Shown one piece after another: positions 46,330-54,703 of a stretch of DNA of 64,000 bases. Position 1 is the first letter of the stretch, and the number at the start of each line of letters is the position of its first letter. The notes under the pieces are model-generated. The model had not been told where the DNA came from. It ran no database searches and saw only the letters and a program-made list of their open reading frames with translations. Position numbers and translations under genes: made by a program. The stretch lies in assembly GCF_025061645.1 (NCBI RefSeq), contig NZ_JANYMP010000020.1:62001-126000 (forward strand), written 5' to 3'. This stretch comes from Umezawaea endophytica (lineage in GTDB: Bacteria; Actinomycetota; Actinomycetes; Mycobacteriales; Pseudonocardiaceae).

Positions 46330-47289
46330 GTGCACGCCATCCGCCAGCACACCTTCGGCCCCGCCGAGAACCTGGCCTTCGAGGAGGTCCCCGATCCGGA
46401 GCCCGGCGCGGGCCAGGTGCGGATCGCGGTGTCCGCCGCCGGGGTCCACGTGGTCGACACGACCATCCGGTCCGGGCTGAAGAGGGGCCCGTTCCCGTTG
46501 CCCGCCCTCCCCATGACCCCCGGACGCGAGGTGGCGGGTGTCGTCACCGCGCTCGGCGCCGACGTCGACCCGGTGTGGCTCGGCGGCCGGGTCGTGGCGC
46601 ACCTCGGCCAGGCCAGCGGCGGTTACGCGGAGGTCGCCGTGGCGAACGTCTCCGCGCTGCACTCCCTGCCGGACCACGTGTCCGACGACGTGGCGGTCGC
46701 GATGATCGGCACCGGACGGACGGCGATGGGCGTGTTCGAGGCCGCCGCGTTCCGCCCGGACGACACCGTGCTGGTCCTCGCCGCGGCGGGCGGCATCGGC
46801 GCGCTGGCCGTCCAGGAGGCGCACGCCGTCGGCGCGCGGGTGATCGGCGCGGCGGGTGGCGCGGCCAAGGTCGACCTGGTGCGGAGCCTGGGCGCGGACC
46901 TCGCGGTCGACTACCGGGAACCGGGCTGGGACAAGGGGATCGAGGGGGTCACGGTGGTGCTGGACGCCGTCGGCGGAGCGGCGGGCCGGACCGCGTTCGA
47001 ACTGCTCGTGCCCGGCGGCCGGGTGGTGCTGTTCGGGTGGGCGCTGGGCACCGAGCCGACGAAGTTCACCAGCGACGAACTGTTCGCCCGGACCCTGTCG
47101 GCGTCCGTGGCGCTGGGCCCGCGCCTGTTCCCCAGGCTGCGGGAGTTCGAGGAACTTTCCCTCGCGGCGGCGGCGTCCGGCAGGCTCACTCCCGTGGTCA
47201 GCTCGACGTTCCCGCTGGCCGACGCCGCGCGGGCGCACCGGGCGCTGGAGAACCGCGAGACCGTGGGCAAGGTCGTGCTCAAGCCGTGA
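46330..47289 (+). CDS. NAD(P)H:quinone oxidoreductase (MDR superfamily)
   Basis: 319 residues. The GroES-like N-terminal domain (1-120) lacks the catalytic and structural zinc cysteines, as in quinone oxidoreductases; the Rossmann motif is VLVLAAAGGIGALAVQEAHAVGA (about 155-177). GTG at 46330 with GAGGAGACG upstream. The 3' end overlaps the convergent TIR gene by 11 bp. Confidence 0.88.
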   Translation: MHAIRQHTFGPAENLAFEEVPDPEPGAGQVRIAVSAAGVHVVDTTIRSGLKRGPFPLPALPMTPGREVAGVVTALGADVDPVWLGGRVVAHLGQASGGYAEVAVANVSALHSLPDHVSDDVAVAMIGTGRTAMGVFEAAAFRPDDTVLVLAAAGGIGALAVQEAHAVGARVIGAAGGAAKVDLVRSLGADLAVDYREPGWDKGIEGVTVVLDAVGGAAGRTAFELLVPGGRVVLFGWALGTEPTKFTSDELFARTLSASVALGPRLFPRLREFEELSLAAAASGRLTPVVSSTFPLADAARAHRALENRETVGKVVLKP

Positions 47290-47725
47290 CACCGGGGTAG
47301 GGCGGCGGGGTCCTCGGCACGTTGCGGCCTGGCGAGAGGCCGTCGAGGAGGACCTCGCGCGCCTGCTCCGGAGGCAGGTCCAGCAGCTTGATGTAGACGA
47401 TCGGGGCGAGCAGTCCGGGTAGCTCGCAGTCGCTCACCAGCACCGGGACCAGCTTGCGGGCCCTGCCGACCGGGTCCTGGAAGAACACCGAGTACCACTC
47501 GGCGGCCGGGAAGTCGCGGTCGAAGAGGTCCGGGCTCAGCACCAGGATCGTGCGGTCGGCCTGGACGCCCTGCTGGGTCAGGTGCACGATGTTCCGCCCC
47601 GGCCGCATGTCCCGCGCCTGGGTCAGCACCGTGTACCCCTCGGCCTCCAGGACGTGGGCCATCCACTCCGCCCACGGTTCGTCCGGACCGCCGAAGCTGA
47701 TGAAGAAGTCGAGTCGATCCGCCAC
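47279..47725 (-). CDS. Stand-alone TIR-domain protein
   Basis: 148 residues, almost entirely one TIR domain: DFFISFGGPDEPWAEWMA opens it, ILVLSPDLFDRDFPAAEW gives the fourth strand and the putative catalytic E76. Such TIR domains cleave NAD+ or make cyclic ADP-ribose signals in bacterial immunity. The C-terminal 20 residues are proline-rich. GTG at 47725 has a weak ribosome site. It is divergent from the large TIR-NACHT gene with 49 bp between starts. It could be a partner, an effector or a duplicated sensor domain of that protein. Confidence 0.82.
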   Translation of the reverse strand: MADRLDFFISFGGPDEPWAEWMAHVLEAEGYTVLTQARDMRPGRNIVHLTQQGVQADRTILVLSPDLFDRDFPAAEWYSVFFQDPVGRARKLVPVLVSDCELPGLLAPIVYIKLLDLPPEQAREVLLDGLSPGRNVPRTPPPYPGVTA

Positions 47726-47740
47726 GCCGCGACGCTACTA

Positions 47741-47756
47741 CCCGTTCCGGAACGGG
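47741..47756. promoter_or_regulatory. Perfect palindrome between the two TIR genes
   Basis: CCCGTTCCGGAACGGG, fully symmetric over 16 bases, near the middle of the 49-bp divergent region. It is the opposite orientation to a LexA box. Probably an operator shared by both genes. Confidence 0.65.
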
Positions 47757-47774
47757 CAAGGCAGGATTGCGGGG

Positions 47775-50700
47775 GTGTCCGCCGGCATCGCGATCAGTTG
47801 GGTCGAGGCGGATCGATCATGGGCCGAGTGGATCGCCTACCAGGTCGACGACCTCGGTTTTCCGGTCCACCTGGACTACCGCGCGGGCAGCAACCGCGTC
47901 CACGAGTTCGACCGGATGCTGGAGGAGGGCTACCGCGTCTTCGCGGTGGTCAGCGATGCCAGCCTCGCCGACGAGGTGACGCGGAGCGAGTGGCTGCGCG
48001 CCGTGCACCGCGACCCCACCGGCAAGCGCGGGCTGGTGGCCCCGCTGCTGGTCCGCCCCGGCGACGCGGGCCCGCTGTCACCGCTCATCCCCGTGCCGCT
48101 CTACGACTTCCGGTCCGAGTCCGCCGCCGCGGACCGCCTCCTCACCGCGCTGGGCCTGCGCGAGAAGCCCGCGCTCACGCCGAGCTTCCCCGGCCTCACC
48201 CCGGCCGAGCACCGGAGCTTCCGGTCCGTCGACCGGTTGATCAAGGAGGCGCCCGCGCCGCCCCGCCGCGTCCTCCACCAGACCGACGACGCGCTCCCCC
48301 GGCTGCGGGTGCTGAGCGGCCTGGCCCGGTCCGAGGCGGGCCAGGTGCCCCACGGGCTCCGGTCGGGCGACTTCGGCAAGGGCCTCTACGTCGAACGCGA
48401 CGTGGCGCCGGAGGTGCTCGGCCGCCTGCTCGACGGAACGAGCGCGCCGCAGTTGCTGGTCGGAGGTCCCGGCACCGGCAAGACGAGCCTGTTGTGGGGC
48501 TTGGCGAACGGCCTGCTGGCGGGCGACGGGCACGAGGTGTTCCTGCTCAAGGCGACCTGGCTGCGCGGCGTCGGCGACCGGCCCGCGCTGGTGGACGCGG
48601 GCATGATCGCGGCGGCCGTCGAACGGGCGGGCCAAGCGTGCACTCTGCTCGTCGACACCGCCGACCTGGTGGTCACCGGCGAGGCCGGGCACCTCGCACT
48701 GGTCGAAGCGGTCAACGCCGCGGCGGACGGCGGGGCGTCCGTGGTCGTGACCTCACGTCCGGACGAAGCGGGCCTCCTGCCGGAGGACTGGGTCGTCGTG
48801 GAGCTGACCGACTACGCGACGGACGGCTCGCCGAGCGAGTTCGAGCGCGCGGTGGCGTCGCACAGCCGTTTCTACTGCCACAGCGCGGAGAACGCCCGCG
48901 GGATGGCGGCCCGGATCATCTCCGCCGTGGCGCGCCAACGCCCTCTCGGCTCCCTGTGCCTCCGCCCGTTGACGCTGCGCATGCTCTTCCAGCTCTACGC
49001 GCCGTCGGCCATCGCCGACAACGTCGACATCACCGACCTGTACTACGAGTTCTGGCGCGACCGGGTCGTCCGCGACCGCCGCGTCGGGTCGGCGGAGGAG
49101 TCGTCGGACGACGTCGACCTGGCCGGGTCGGTCCGGCAGCTCGCGGTGGCCATGCTGCGCGACGGCATCCCCGAGGTCGCGCCGGACCGCTCGTTCGACC
49201 CCGGTGAGCGGCGCCGGGAGGTCGACCTCCTGGTGCAGCGGGGCGTGGGTGAACTCGTCGTCGGCTCCTCCGGGCAGGCGTTCCGCTTCTTCCACCAGAC
49301 TTTCTTCGAGTTCGCCGCCGCGCAGGCCCTGCTGCACGCCAGGCGAGCCGACGCGCTGGCGCTCCTGCACGACCGCATCCGCGGCAGGCCGGACGACTAC
49401 CTGCTGCTGGCCGTCTTCGAGCAGGCGTGGCTGTGCGCGTGGCGCGACGACTCCATGGTTTCGGCGGCGAGAAACCTGGCCGTGCGGATGCTCGCCGACC
49501 TCTCGCGGACGTTCACCGACCGCGCGGGCGATCCGTTCCCGTACGCGCTCCAGCGCACGATCCTCTCGGTGCTCGCCCAGAGCCCGGACGTGCCGGAGGA
49601 GTGCTGGGAGCCCTTCGGCCACGTGCTGGCGCGGGCGAGCCTGCCCGTGGCGCGGGACTGCCTGGCGCTCATGCCCCCGCCGCAGCGCCGGTGGACCGAG
49701 CACGACGTGGACGTCCTGAAGGCGTGCGCGGACCGAGCCGACGCCGCGTGGGTGAGCGTCCTGGGAGTGCTGTCCCGCCTGGCGCAGCGCGATCCCGAAC
49801 TGGCGGTCGTCGGCGCGCGGCGGCTGGAGCTGACGAAGCGGGCGGCGGGGCTGGCCACGTTCCGCGCCGAGCTGCCGAGGCTGTTCACCGGGCTGCTGAC
49901 CGTCGACCCGGAGTTCGCGCTGGCCGAACTGCGGGAGCTGGGCAGGCTCACCGCGCTCAGGAGCGCGGGCCACCACCTGGTCACGATCCTGCGCCCGGTG
50001 CTGGACCGGGAGGCGGACCTGCCGGACGTCGACCTGGCGACGTGGGCGGACGGCGTCGTCGGCGCGACGGCCACCCGCGGGCAGGCGGTCACCCTGGCGC
50101 ACGCCGAGGCGCACCGGATCGCGGCGACGCGGCTCGCCGAGCGGTACGGGTGGTCGCTCCTGCTCGTCGAGTTGAAGACCGCGCTCGCCACGGTCGCCGC
50201 GGCGGACAAGGTCGCCTCGCGCGACGGCGCGCTGCTCGGCGGGGTGCTGGCCGCGCTCGCCACGGACGGTCCGCTGGAGACGGTCGACGTGGTCGCGCTC
50301 CTGCTGCGCGGGCACGACGAACCCCAGGTGCACGCCGAGATCAACCGCGGCTGGCTGGTGGGCTACACCCGCCGCGCGCCGAACCGGATGCTCGACCGCT
50401 GGGCGGACTGGCTGGCCGAGGGGCTGCCCGCGTCCCACAAGAAACCCGTGGGGGCGCGGCAGCGGTGGGCGGACACGGTTCGGCGCACGCTGGAGCGCCA
50501 GGACGTGGAACCCGTGGTCGCCGTGGGCGTCGCGGAAGCCGCCTCCCGCCGCCTGTCCGACGACGAGGTCGCGCCGTGGCTGGACCCCGACGTGCTGCTG
50601 CGCCTGGTGGTGCGGGGCGCGGGGGTCGGCTCGGCGGGGGCGCGGGCCGCGGTGGCCGGGATCGCGGCGGGGCAAGAGCTTGCGCCGCACGCGATCCGGA

Positions 50701-51656
50701 CGTTCATCCAGCAGTCGTTGCGCGGCACCGCTTCCCCGGAGGAGCAGCGGATGCTGCTCGACGTGCTGATCGAGCGCCGCGGGTGCGGGCACCTCCACCA
50801 GTTTCTCGAACGGCACCCCGACGTGGCCGGTTACCCGCTCCGCGCTCGGAGCGGGCCGCTGCGAACGCTGGTCGAGTCCGGTCTGGGGTCCGACCGGGCG
50901 ACCGACCGCCGCGACGGGGCGCGCCTGCTGGTCGCGCTGGTCCGCCGCGACGGGCTGGTGCCACCAGCGTTGAGCACCGTGGAGGGGTGGCTCGGGGCGG
51001 CGCGCGAGGTGTCGGTGCGGAAGTCGCTGGTGCAGGTGCTGGGGCTGGGACTCGCCTCGGGCCACTACCCGGCGGCGGACGTGCGGCGCGTCCTGGCACC
51101 GCGGGCGGACTGGGACCCCGCGGAGGGGGCGCCGTCCGCCAACGCGCTGGAGGCCCGGTCGCTCCTGGTGGTGCTGCTGGCCGGGTGGGGTGCGCCGGGT
51201 GACGCCGAGGAGTTGCTGCGGCTCGCGTTTCGCGAACCCGTCGAGTCCGCCGTCCTGGGGAAGGTGTCGGGCTTCGTGCGGCACGGGGCCGCGGGGCTGC
51301 CGTTCCTGCTGGACTTCGGCAGGCGGCTCCGGCACGCGCCGCGCCGGGCGTGCAAGGACACGGCCGTGCGCTGGCGACCGGCCATGGCCGAGGTGCTGGC
51401 CGGGGCCGAACCGGGCGAGCACCTCGCCGTCCTGGACGCGCTGAGGGGCGACCTGGACGAGGAGTTCGCCGCGAGCGTCGTCCTGCACCTGGAACCCCGG
51501 CGGCACGCCGAACTGCGGCACGGGATGACCCTGCTGCTCGACGAACCCGACCTCGACGAACGGGTGCGGCGCAACATCCGGCTGGCCCTCGTGGAGAGGA
51601 CCGCCCACCGCTCGCGGCGCACCGGTTACGACTGGCCGGACCTGCTCAAGCCGTGA
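47775..51656 (+). CDS. TIR-NACHT NTPase with long helical-repeat C-terminus (NLR-like)
   Basis: 1293 residues in four parts. Residues 3-125 are a TIR domain (AISWVEADRSWAEWIAYQ; putative catalytic E72 in TRSEW). A linker follows. A STAND/NACHT ATPase has Walker A GGPGTGKTS (about 229-237), Walker B LLVDTADL (D294) and TSRPDE (326-331). A winged-helix part ends in HQTFFEFAAAQALL (about 507), the NACHT-type FxHxTFxEfxAA signature. Residues 560-1293 are helical, Ala/Leu/Arg-rich repeats, the likely sensor. Architecture is that of bacterial NLR-like antiphage proteins, with TIR as effector. GTG at 47775 has no strong ribosome site. Confidence 0.85.
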   Translation: MSAGIAISWVEADRSWAEWIAYQVDDLGFPVHLDYRAGSNRVHEFDRMLEEGYRVFAVVSDASLADEVTRSEWLRAVHRDPTGKRGLVAPLLVRPGDAGPLSPLIPVPLYDFRSESAAADRLLTALGLREKPALTPSFPGLTPAEHRSFRSVDRLIKEAPAPPRRVLHQTDDALPRLRVLSGLARSEAGQVPHGLRSGDFGKGLYVERDVAPEVLGRLLDGTSAPQLLVGGPGTGKTSLLWGLANGLLAGDGHEVFLLKATWLRGVGDRPALVDAGMIAAAVERAGQACTLLVDTADLVVTGEAGHLALVEAVNAAADGGASVVVTSRPDEAGLLPEDWVVVELTDYATDGSPSEFERAVASHSRFYCHSAENARGMAARIISAVARQRPLGSLCLRPLTLRMLFQLYAPSAIADNVDITDLYYEFWRDRVVRDRRVGSAEESSDDVDLAGSVRQLAVAMLRDGIPEVAPDRSFDPGERRREVDLLVQRGVGELVVGSSGQAFRFFHQTFFEFAAAQALLHARRADALALLHDRIRGRPDDYLLLAVFEQAWLCAWRDDSMVSAARNLAVRMLADLSRTFTDRAGDPFPYALQRTILSVLAQSPDVPEECWEPFGHVLARASLPVARDCLALMPPPQRRWTEHDVDVLKACADRADAAWVSVLGVLSRLAQRDPELAVVGARRLELTKRAAGLATFRAELPRLFTGLLTVDPEFALAELRELGRLTALRSAGHHLVTILRPVLDREADLPDVDLATWADGVVGATATRGQAVTLAHAEAHRIAATRLAERYGWSLLLVELKTALATVAAADKVASRDGALLGGVLAALATDGPLETVDVVALLLRGHDEPQVHAEINRGWLVGYTRRAPNRMLDRWADWLAEGLPASHKKPVGARQRWADTVRRTLERQDVEPVVAVGVAEAASRRLSDDEVAPWLDPDVLLRLVVRGAGVGSAGARAAVAGIAAGQELAPHAIRTFIQQSLRGTASPEEQRMLLDVLIERRGCGHLHQFLERHPDVAGYPLRARSGPLRTLVESGLGSDRATDRRDGARLLVALVRRDGLVPPALSTVEGWLGAAREVSVRKSLVQVLGLGLASGHYPAADVRRVLAPRADWDPAEGAPSANALEARSLLVVLLAGWGAPGDAEELLRLAFREPVESAVLGKVSGFVRHGAAGLPFLLDFGRRLRHAPRRACKDTAVRWRPAMAEVLAGAEPGEHLAVLDALRGDLDEEFAASVVLHLEPRRHAELRHGMTLLLDEPDLDERVRRNIRLALVERTAHRSRRTGYDWPDLLKP

Positions 51657-51778: not shown

Positions 51779-52483
51779 CTAGACCTTCACGCTGACGAAC
51801 TTCTTGCCGTCGAAGTTCTCCACCTCGACAGCCGCCACGTCGTCCGGGGCGATGAGGGCCGAACCGTCGAGGTTCGTGCCGTCCGCCTCCCCGGCCTTCG
51901 AGACCAGCCAACTACCAATCTCCTCGCGGTGGCCGTCCTTCGCCACGACGAACAACCGGCACTTCTCGTTCTGCGGGATCCCGCCGATGCCCGCGTTGAC
52001 CCGGACCCAGCCCGCGGCGGGCTTGACCTGGACGGTCATCCGCGCGCCGGTGTTCGGGTCCGCGAACGTGGCGACCTTCGTGCCCGCGGGTGGAGTGGCG
52101 GCCGACGACGTCGGTCCGGGCAGCGCTTCCGTGACGGGCGCGGTGCTCCGACCGACCACGACACCGCTGCCGAGCACGACCGCGGCGACGACGGCGGCCG
52201 CCGCGCCGAGTGCGAACTGCCTGCGCCGGACCGCGCCACCGCGTTCCGACCGCATCTGCCGCAGCGTGCGCTGGAGCAGCAGGTCACCGCCTTCCGGCGG
52301 TCCGTCGAGCAGCGCCTCCGGCGGAACGTCGCCGAGGTAGGCCTCCATGGTCCGCAGCTCGTCGAGCTCGGCCCGGCACTCCGGGCAGCGGGAGAGGTGC
52401 TCCTCCACGGACCGCACCTCCTGCTCGTCGAGGGCTCCCAGCACGTAGGCGCCCAGCAGTTGTGGATCGTGCTGCGTGGTCAT
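51779..52483 (-). CDS. Zinc-finger anti-sigma factor (RskA-type C-terminal domain)
   Basis: 234 residues. The N-terminal ASD has H29-L-x2-C33-x2-C36 (HLSRCPECRAEL), the zinc motif that grips ECF sigma factors. One membrane helix (about 88-110) separates it from an extracytoplasmic RskA-like domain with WVRVNAGIGGIPQNEKC, IGSWLVSKAGEADG and the final FDGKKFVSVKV. It probably traps the ECF sigma factor encoded upstream until cleaved. The ATG overlaps that sigma gene's stop (ATGA). Confidence 0.92.
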   Translation of the reverse strand: MTTQHDPQLLGAYVLGALDEQEVRSVEEHLSRCPECRAELDELRTMEAYLGDVPPEALLDGPPEGGDLLLQRTLRQMRSERGGAVRRRQFALGAAAAVVAAVVLGSGVVVGRSTAPVTEALPGPTSSAATPPAGTKVATFADPNTGARMTVQVKPAAGWVRVNAGIGGIPQNEKCRLFVVAKDGHREEIGSWLVSKAGEADGTNLDGSALIAPDDVAAVEVENFDGKKFVSVKV

Positions 52484-54124: not shown

Positions 54125-54703
54125 CTAGTGGGGAGCGGACACCAGGACGTGGCCGTCGAGCGTTTCGACGTTGACCGCCTCCAGGTCGTCGGCGGCGACG
54201 AGTGCGGCGCCGTCGAGCGTGACGCCGCGGCCGGGTTCGCCGGTCCCGGCGATCCAGCTACCCACGACGAACCGGCCGCCGTGCACGTCGGTGACCACGA
54301 GCCAGCACCGCTCGCCCGCGCGCACGCCCTTGACGTTCACCCGCAGCCGCGACCAGCCTTCGGCGGGACTGACCACCGCGCTGATGCTGGCGCCGTTCGA
54401 GATGGCGCCGACGACGAACTCGTCGGAGTCGCCGGTCAGGTGCCTGCCGATCACCACGCCGCCCGCGAGGGCCGCGGCGAGCAGGCTCGTCGACACCACG
54501 ACGGCGAAGCTCTGGCGCCGTCTGCCCTCGCGCGCCTTCTCGTGCCGGACCCGGCCGAGGGTGCGCTGGAGCAGCAGGTCACCGCCCTCGGGACGGCCGT
54601 CGAGGGCTGCTTCGGGGGGTAGGTCGAACTCTCGGTGCATCGTCGTCTCGTTCAGCTCGAACTCCTGTGGTGACCACGGCGGCACGCGGACGTCAGCGGC
54701 CAT
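54125..54703 (-). CDS. RskA-like membrane protein without zinc-binding domain
   Basis: 192 residues, a diverged paralogue of the anti-sigma factor 2 kb away. Shared parts are PPEAALDGRPEGGDLLLQRTL, one membrane helix (about 65-90), RVNVKGVRAGERCWLVVTD, VGSWIAGTGE and the final LDGHVLVSAPH. The HxxxCxxC anti-sigma domain is absent and no sigma gene adjoins it, so it is unlikely to bind an ECF factor in the usual way. It may compete for a protease or ligand. ATG at 54703; start uncertain. Confidence 0.8.
   Translation of the reverse strand: MAADVRVPPWSPQEFELNETTMHREFDLPPEAALDGRPEGGDLLLQRTLGRVRHEKAREGRRRQSFAVVVSTSLLAAALAGGVVIGRHLTGDSDEFVVGAISNGASISAVVSPAEGWSRLRVNVKGVRAGERCWLVVTDVHGGRFVVGSWIAGTGEPGRGVTLDGAALVAADDLEAVNVETLDGHVLVSAPH

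Follow-up and report, generated by a model that had tools for sequence, protein, structure and literature searches.

The 64-kb window, which is the whole stretch of Umezawaea endophytica DNA that was analysed, contains a small TIR gene and a large TIR-NACHT gene that diverge from each other across a 49-bp gap, and we found the same head-to-head pair in Kineosporia babensis and Nocardia africana. We favour, with moderate confidence, the reading that the two genes form a horizontally moving immune module of the abortive-infection type, in which the NACHT protein would be the sensor, its own TIR domain would serve mainly as an adaptor, and the separate small TIR would be the NAD+-cleaving (NADase) executor. 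This reading builds on the layout and its recurrence, the domain content of the two proteins, their predicted folds (the C-terminal part of the large protein aside), an asymmetry between the two TIR domains, and the absence of the segment carrying both genes from two congeners. The pair lies on contig C20 of the 11.0-Mb host genome (G000), which relatives of the pair proteins place among the actinobacteria. The coordinates, the protein lengths of 148 and 1293 amino acids (aa), the gap and the divergent orientation given in a preliminary description of this DNA were all correct on re-checking, and the features are as follows.

47279-47725, minus strand: small TIR-only gene, 148 aa, GTG start, Glu76 codon at 47498-47500, proposed NADase executor
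47775-51656, plus strand: large TIR-NACHT gene, 1293 aa, GTG start, proposed sensor
47787-48143, plus strand: TIR domain of the large protein (residues 5-123), Pfam TIR_2 at 1.6e-15, Glu72 codon at 47988-47990
47862-47897, plus strand: shortened betaB/BB-loop segment of the large TIR, 12 residues, from an alignment of 34 TIRs
48285-49499, plus strand: NACHT NTPase region (about residues 171-575), from motifs, alignment and structure model
49500-51653, plus strand: C-terminal region of about 720 residues, presumed sensor, aligning to relatives over its length
47726-47774, no strand: divergent intergenic region of 49 bp, presumably holding both promoters, from the gene boundaries
47741-47756, no strand: perfect palindrome CCCGTTCCGGAACGGG, exact match
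47276-47289, no strand: left 14-bp direct repeat TGCTCAAGCCGTGA, covering the end of the oxidoreductase gene and the final codons with the stop codon of the small TIR gene
51643-51656, no strand: right 14-bp direct repeat TGCTCAAGCCGTGA, covering the final codons with the stop codon of the large gene, at the insert boundary

Relatives of the large protein turned up at 34 loci in one scan of genome contigs, and a profile scan of loci gave 59 distinct NTPase loci, 56 of which (window included) had at least 1 kb of upstream sequence. L059, L064 and L087, with less than 1 kb upstream, were dropped from the count, as were L136 and L137 (which duplicate L082 and L074) and short loci repeating the same genes. 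The pairs of K. babensis (L055) and N. africana (L062) have gaps of 45 bp and 50 bp, respectively; their start codons were assigned by frame, spacing and ribosome-binding sites, and the large gene of K. babensis reaches the contig end. A small TIR gene was located within 3 kb in all three of the N-terminal-TIR loci among the 56, versus none of the other 53 (0/7 trypsin-TIR-NACHT loci and 0/46 loci without a TIR; Fisher p = 3.6e-5, a value inflated by the relatedness of the rows). The TIR profile used for this neighbour scan (threshold 1e-3) was built partly from these same sequences, and the flank of some loci is shorter than 3 kb, so that a distant or unseen TIR neighbour could be missed. L152, a later locus outside the 56, has neither a TIR of its own nor a TIR neighbour. 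The preliminary description had called the pairing obligate, which holds for the three members with an N-terminal TIR but not for the other 53 loci, and homologues lacking the small TIR gene are in the majority only if relatives without an N-terminal TIR, or with a trypsin domain in front of it, are counted. These results support that the pair is a real, recurrent unit.

If the two genes were instead neighbours by chance, with the stand-alone TIR and the TIR-NACHT protein each working separately, it would be natural that the small TIRs are not shown as one clade and that TIR_2 is frequent in the host genome, where 13 Pfam matches were found, two of them being this pair. The divergent layout with gaps of 45-50 bp in three lineages, the contrast of 3/3 against 0/53, and the location of both genes within one segment missing from two congeners all speak against such a coincidence. 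So does a search of six NACHT-carrying genomes with the small-TIR profile, in which three matched at E<=1e-8: the two that carry the pair gave E<1e-80, having contributed to the profile, and one Actinomadura gave 2e-32. We regard coincidence as very improbable. On the Actinomadura contig L102, a similar TIR stands at the start of an open frame running to the contig end; it may or may not belong with L059, which lacks its N-terminus.

Genome surveys showed how the relatives are distributed. Within the host family, a search with P0001 matched 18 of 297 genomes at 1e-10, and these matches, the host's own genome aside, were through the NACHT part or the TIR alone. Profile A3 at 1e-30 matched 3 of 394 genomes for the class, 4 of 397 for the order, 2 of 148 for the genus of N. 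africana, 1 of 197 for the class of Kineosporia and 17 of 295 for the genus of Streptomyces sp. t39; at 1e-20 it matched 1 of 99 for the order of Kineosporia and 3 of 150 for the order of Actinomadura BRA 177. The query genomes are among those counted, the sets overlap, and misses are possible because only 1-6 candidates per genome were scored. No N-terminal-TIR pair beyond those of the window, L055 and L062 was found in the surveyed genomes, with 1,988 genome look-ups made in all. The pair had no match in phage records, and viral contigs gave pattern matches with no confirmed relative among them. A plasmid protein search returned 16 records, one of them over the full length (Streptomyces cellulosae, annotated as trypsin-like), and at the DNA level the insert matched plasmids once and in part, over 24% of the query, on the same S. 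cellulosae plasmid.

The large protein carries a Walker A motif at residues 230-238 (GPGTGKTS), a Walker B motif around 291-297 (LLVDTAD) and FFHQTFFEF at 505-513, the last being of a type that we take to be a mark of NACHT winged helices. These motifs, which had been noted before, were confirmed, and their key positions are mostly invariant across 11 aligned proteins, window included. The NACHT assignment itself came out divided: the Pfam NACHT model gave no match in the window protein, where only weak AAA models below cut-off were seen (the relatives L061, L062 and L063 have NACHT matches below threshold), but the fold agrees with it. The structure model of residues 1-604, which takes in the first ~29 residues of the C-terminal region, has a mean predicted local distance difference test (pLDDT) score of 83.7, with the TIR less confident and residues 135-165 and 195-197 under 50. 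Since its best PDB matches are the animal NACHT-type nucleotide-binding leucine-rich-repeat proteins (NLRs) NLRP7, NLRC4, NLRP3, NLRP2, NLRP14 and NOD2, followed by CED-4 and Avs4, the assignment is right by fold, and we take the NTPase of the large protein to be a NACHT domain on the strength of this model. Among solved structures, 9n00 ('AAA family ATPase', E 1.6e-9) comes closest in sequence to the NACHT profile; a literature search by this structure code found no paper. Pfam shows no leucine-rich repeat (LRR) in the large protein.

The small protein has an above-cut-off Pfam TIR_2 match (2.4e-23), as does the large one over residues 5-123. Its structure model (pLDDT 89.7) matched TIR or TIR-like proteins in all of the top 50 PDB matches listed, which include TRR-2, TLR1, SPARTA, MyD88, SARM1 and AbTir. 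Searches of defence-system models placed neither protein firmly in a described family. PADLOC gave a partial match of the small TIR to the candidate PDC-S66 (E 2.9e-5) together with weaker TIR matches; its matches to the large protein were partial and weak, none of them below E 0.03, and neither window protein had a Ths match at E<=1. NCBIfam had no match over cut-off for the pair proteins.

Comparison of the two TIR domains revealed an asymmetry. In the alignment of 34 TIRs, the betaB/BB-loop segment has 15 residues in 31 and 12 residues in the remaining three, which are exactly the large TIRs of the three pairs (window, Kineosporia and Nocardia). The small TIRs of all three pairs keep the full 15-residue segment and a glutamate at the catalytic position, and the large TIRs have Glu (window), Ala (Kineosporia) and Trp (Nocardia) there. 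Gap placement within the large TIRs is uncertain in the alignment; the shortening is nevertheless plain from the raw sequences, where 16 residues separate the conserved Gly from the Asn in the window small TIR versus 13 in all three large TIRs, and the structure models agree (strand 33-35 to a helix at 46 in the small TIR versus strand 31-34 to a helix at 41 in the large TIR). The candidate catalytic glutamates named in the preliminary description, E76 and E72, both occupy the expected position, but the two domains are not equivalent, as the large BB-loop is three residues shorter in 3/3 pairs and its Glu is lost in 2/3. What is said here of the catalytic glutamate and the BB-loop in TIR enzymes draws partly on the portions of PMC11298796 available to us and is partly general background.

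The asymmetry bears on how the two proteins might divide their work. Divergent genes with short gaps are typical of regulator/effector units, and the small TIR could accordingly be a regulator, a brake or antitoxin-like protein that would cap the TIRs of an active TIR-NACHT protein until the sensor is triggered. The Glu72 kept by the window large TIR is consistent with this, but such a brake predicts the opposite of the general pattern, in which the small TIRs have the Glu in 3/3 and the supposed effector lacks it in 2/3 and shows a short BB-loop in 3/3; we consider the brake unlikely. A slightly less likely arrangement would be two NADase TIRs of equal rank in mixed filaments, with the Glu loss in Kineosporia and Nocardia as a side branch. 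Both glutamates are present in the window, and a Glu is found at the same place in six of seven trypsin-TIR-NACHT relatives (Asp in the seventh), which fits equal rank, whereas the shortened BB-loop segment in all three large TIRs, that of the window included, does not.

These seven relatives (L056, L057, L058, L060, L126, L127 and L128) comprise all those with a TIR behind another N-terminal part, and each is a trypsin-TIR-NACHT protein (Pfam Trypsin_2 and TIR_2). In five of them (L056, L058, L126, L127 and L128) a separate Trypsin_2 gene lies directly upstream, which may be regarded as a parallel, by analogy, of a stand-alone effector next to a like-domained sensor.

In the 49-bp gap of the window, the exact 16-bp palindrome CCCGTTCCGGAACGGG is present as first noted. 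Three perfect 16-bp palindromes were seen in the window against 3.9 expected, and 0.002 would be expected in the gap alone. The rest of the 11-Mb genome holds no exact copy and no listed copy with one mismatch; sites with at most two mismatches number 35 genome-wide against 11 for a reversed control pattern, an excess that is possibly caused by codon composition. The gaps of the Kineosporia and Nocardia pairs contain no perfect even-length palindrome of at least 8 bp and no near-perfect one of at least 10 bp. Thus, of the layout that the preliminary description had proposed, the divergent pair recurs in three lineages but the palindrome does not. As neither of the other gaps holds anything comparable, and as no exact or 1-mismatch copy was listed elsewhere in the genome, the idea of a shared operator is unsupported and is ruled out as a conserved feature. 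The palindrome may be a local autoregulatory site, for which it is a candidate.

Comparison with two congeners (G060 and G022) showed that both have the oxidoreductase gene followed by the anti-sigma region, with the pair absent at the site. The alignments of the two flanks overlap by 21 bp in G060, and in G022 the right-hand alignment starts about 120 bp further on. The extra segment in the window is 4.37 kb long, is filled by the two pair genes and is bounded by two perfect 14-bp copies of TGCTCAAGCCGTGA; both empty sites of the congeners have a single copy with one difference. No terminal inverted repeat of at least 9 bp was found in the insert ends compared, and no direct repeat over 10 bp around the Nocardia pair in the stretches compared. 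Both genes thus lie in one segment that is absent from two congeners. We infer a horizontal gain of this segment; the alternative is a loss in the congeners through such 14-bp repeats.

A tree of 11 proteins, built on their NACHT and C-terminal parts, places the window protein with L054, and the Kineosporia and Nocardia proteins with L063; no TIR was found in either L054 or L063. A single clade of the three pair-bearing NACHT proteins was rejected (approximately unbiased test, p 4.8e-6). For the short TIR domains, one clade was not rejected for either the small (p 0.39) or the large (p 0.49) TIRs. As the pair-bearing NACHT proteins are not one clade, either the module of two TIRs stayed intact through exchanges or losses, or it arose by more than one assembly; judged from these trees, the TIR module could be ancestral and repeatedly replaced, could have been exchanged, or could have been assembled more than once. 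A few genes upstream of the L054 relative, the nearest one to the window protein in the NACHT tree, lies a gene for an NNH1-NACHT-LRR protein, a bacterial NLR (L054:3994-7464).

The genes beside the window pair, as read from open reading frames, are an oxidoreductase-like gene on one side and an anti-sigma-factor-like gene on the other. Two anti-sigma-factor-like genes on the minus strand, at about 51779-52483 and 54125-54703 of the window, share a segment, with a cross-match between 52258-52331 and 54557-54604. The Nocardia pair adjoins a ThsB-type TIR gene (Pfam ThsB_TIR 4.4e-7) and a caspase (Peptidase_C14) gene, which together make up a Thoeris-like locus (L062:7511-8894).

Small TIR genes were also observed in other settings. 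Four relatives have Hsp70-linked cassettes (L043:6630-9292, L049:6865-9511, L088:6372-9069 and L089:5394-7944), each with two convergent small TIR genes; in the aligned rows one TIR has the Glu, and its companion carries a Gln in L049 and a Glu in both L043 and L089, so that the couples possibly represent another pairing of an active with a degenerate TIR. A second TIR locus of the host genome (L052, contig C4:480000-499900) encodes a TIR-CHAT-STAND-TPR protein of 1861 aa with two Hsp70 genes, and also a small TIR of 180 aa with Gln at the catalytic position.

A cell-death switch serving development or allorecognition in a filamentous actinobacterium, in place of an anti-phage function, would agree with the rare and patchy distribution in actinobacteria. 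Systems of effector-associated domains (EADs) are also over-represented in multicellular bacteria according to the consulted part of PMC7159879. The neighbourhood of the Nocardia pair, with its ThsB-type TIR and caspase genes, and the presence or absence of the pair at one site between congeners are harder to reconcile with such a switch, which we hold to be improbable.

In the immune module that we favour, the C-terminal part of the large protein would detect a phage or stress signal, upon which the NACHT domain would oligomerise. The N-terminal TIRs, with their shortened BB-loop, would be poor enzymes and would be displayed as an adaptor array, which would recruit and align the separate 148-aa TIRs through contacts between the TIRs of the two proteins. 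The small TIRs, having the full BB-loop and the Glu at the catalytic position, would then cleave NAD+ to ADP-ribose or a cyclic product, and this cleavage would stop the infected cell. The ThsB-type TIR and caspase genes beside the Nocardia pair, the parallel offered by the trypsin-TIR-NACHT loci and the rejection of one clade for the pair-bearing NACHT proteins all count in favour of this module. A more specific proposal, which we put forward tentatively and regard as somewhat less probable than not, is that the pair is a bacterial counterpart of the sensor/executor TIR-NLR pairs of plants, in which a NACHT sensor whose TIR is decaying and has a shortened BB-loop would switch on a minimal TIR NADase through TIR-TIR contacts, and both would travel as a 4.4-kb two-gene cassette with no recombinase of its own, recombined onto different branches of one NACHT family.

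Several observations weigh against the module with a large adaptor and a small executor. Only three pairs are known, and the palindrome is not conserved among them. Because the window large TIR retains Glu72, the large protein may itself be an active NADase here, as far as its residues suggest. Six of the seven trypsin-TIR-NACHT TIRs keep the Glu and the full BB segment, yet have no small TIR partner. The window small TIR is nearest to TIRs of the Hsp70-associated cassettes (49% identity; support of 88 in the SH-like approximate likelihood ratio test, SH-aLRT) and not to the other pair TIRs, and the genes around the window pair resemble housekeeping genes, not a defence island. If the module nevertheless works as proposed, the division of labour of plant paired NLRs would exist in bacteria, with a degenerate TIR for sensing or scaffolding and another TIR as the enzyme. 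The activation of a catalytic TIR by a non-catalytic one would become testable in a two-gene bacterial system, and the EAD principle would be extended to an enzyme family serving as its own adaptor.

Among known systems, Thoeris uses a small TIR as its NAD+-consuming component, and the pair resembles it in having a small TIR and, in Nocardia, in adjoining the ThsB-type TIR and caspase locus. It differs in that the window has no adjacent ThsA-type effector and the partner is a NACHT sensor. In the TIR-APAZ/short Argonaute system SPARTA, a TIR NADase is activated by assembly through a separate sensor, and the small TIR model matches the SPARTA TIR; however, the sensor of SPARTA is an Argonaute, not a NACHT protein, and its TIR is fused to APAZ. 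The bNACHT antiphage proteins, as described in the accessible part of PMC12169576, have the layout of effector domain, NACHT and C-terminal sensor that the large protein shows, and the NLR fold of its structure model is a further likeness. As points of difference, the large protein is missed by the Pfam NACHT model and matched weakly by PADLOC, and a like-domained effector lies in a second gene.

The pair had been put forward as undescribed. This may fit the pair itself, and no bacterial TIR plus TIR-NACHT pair turned up in the portions of open-access literature searched for this layout, which does not establish that it is unpublished, but its ingredients have been reported. In the sections consulted, TIR and trypsin domains fused ahead of STAND NTPases and effector recruitment through a shared domain, the EAD principle, are published (PMC7159879, PMC8195603), and plants have head-to-head NLR pairs (PMC11298796).

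Like the plant TIR-NLR pairs RRS1/RPS4 and CHS3/CSA1, the bacterial pairs consist of divergent genes, here with gaps of 49, 45 and 50 bp, and place a nucleotide-switch NTPase beside a TIR. In the plant pairs one partner, the executor, keeps the catalytic Glu and the BB-loop; here it is the small TIR that is intact in 3/3, and the large TIR has a short BB-loop in 3/3 and has lost the Glu in 2/3, keeping it in the window. Whereas each partner of the plant pairs is an NB-ARC-LRR protein, the small partner in bacteria consists of a TIR only, with no NTPase, and the NTPase of the large one is NACHT by fold, not NB-ARC; no LRR was observed. We claim no common ancestry for the plant and bacterial pairings.

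In the EAD coupling of bacterial conflict systems (Kaur et al. 2020, PMC7159879; 2021, PMC8195603, in the parts available), also in actinobacteria, recruitment is homotypic: the core protein carries one copy of a domain, and the effector that it draws in, encoded next to it, carries another. The pairs correspond to this in having TIR_2 in both the core protein and the adjacent gene in 3/3 cases. The differences are that the EADs in those parts have no enzymatic features, whereas the shared domain here is a TIR and the partner copy is enzyme-like, and that EAD genes form an operon, whereas the pair genes diverge. By analogy, the arrangement is best read as following the EAD principle and as resembling pairs of the RRS1/RPS4 type.

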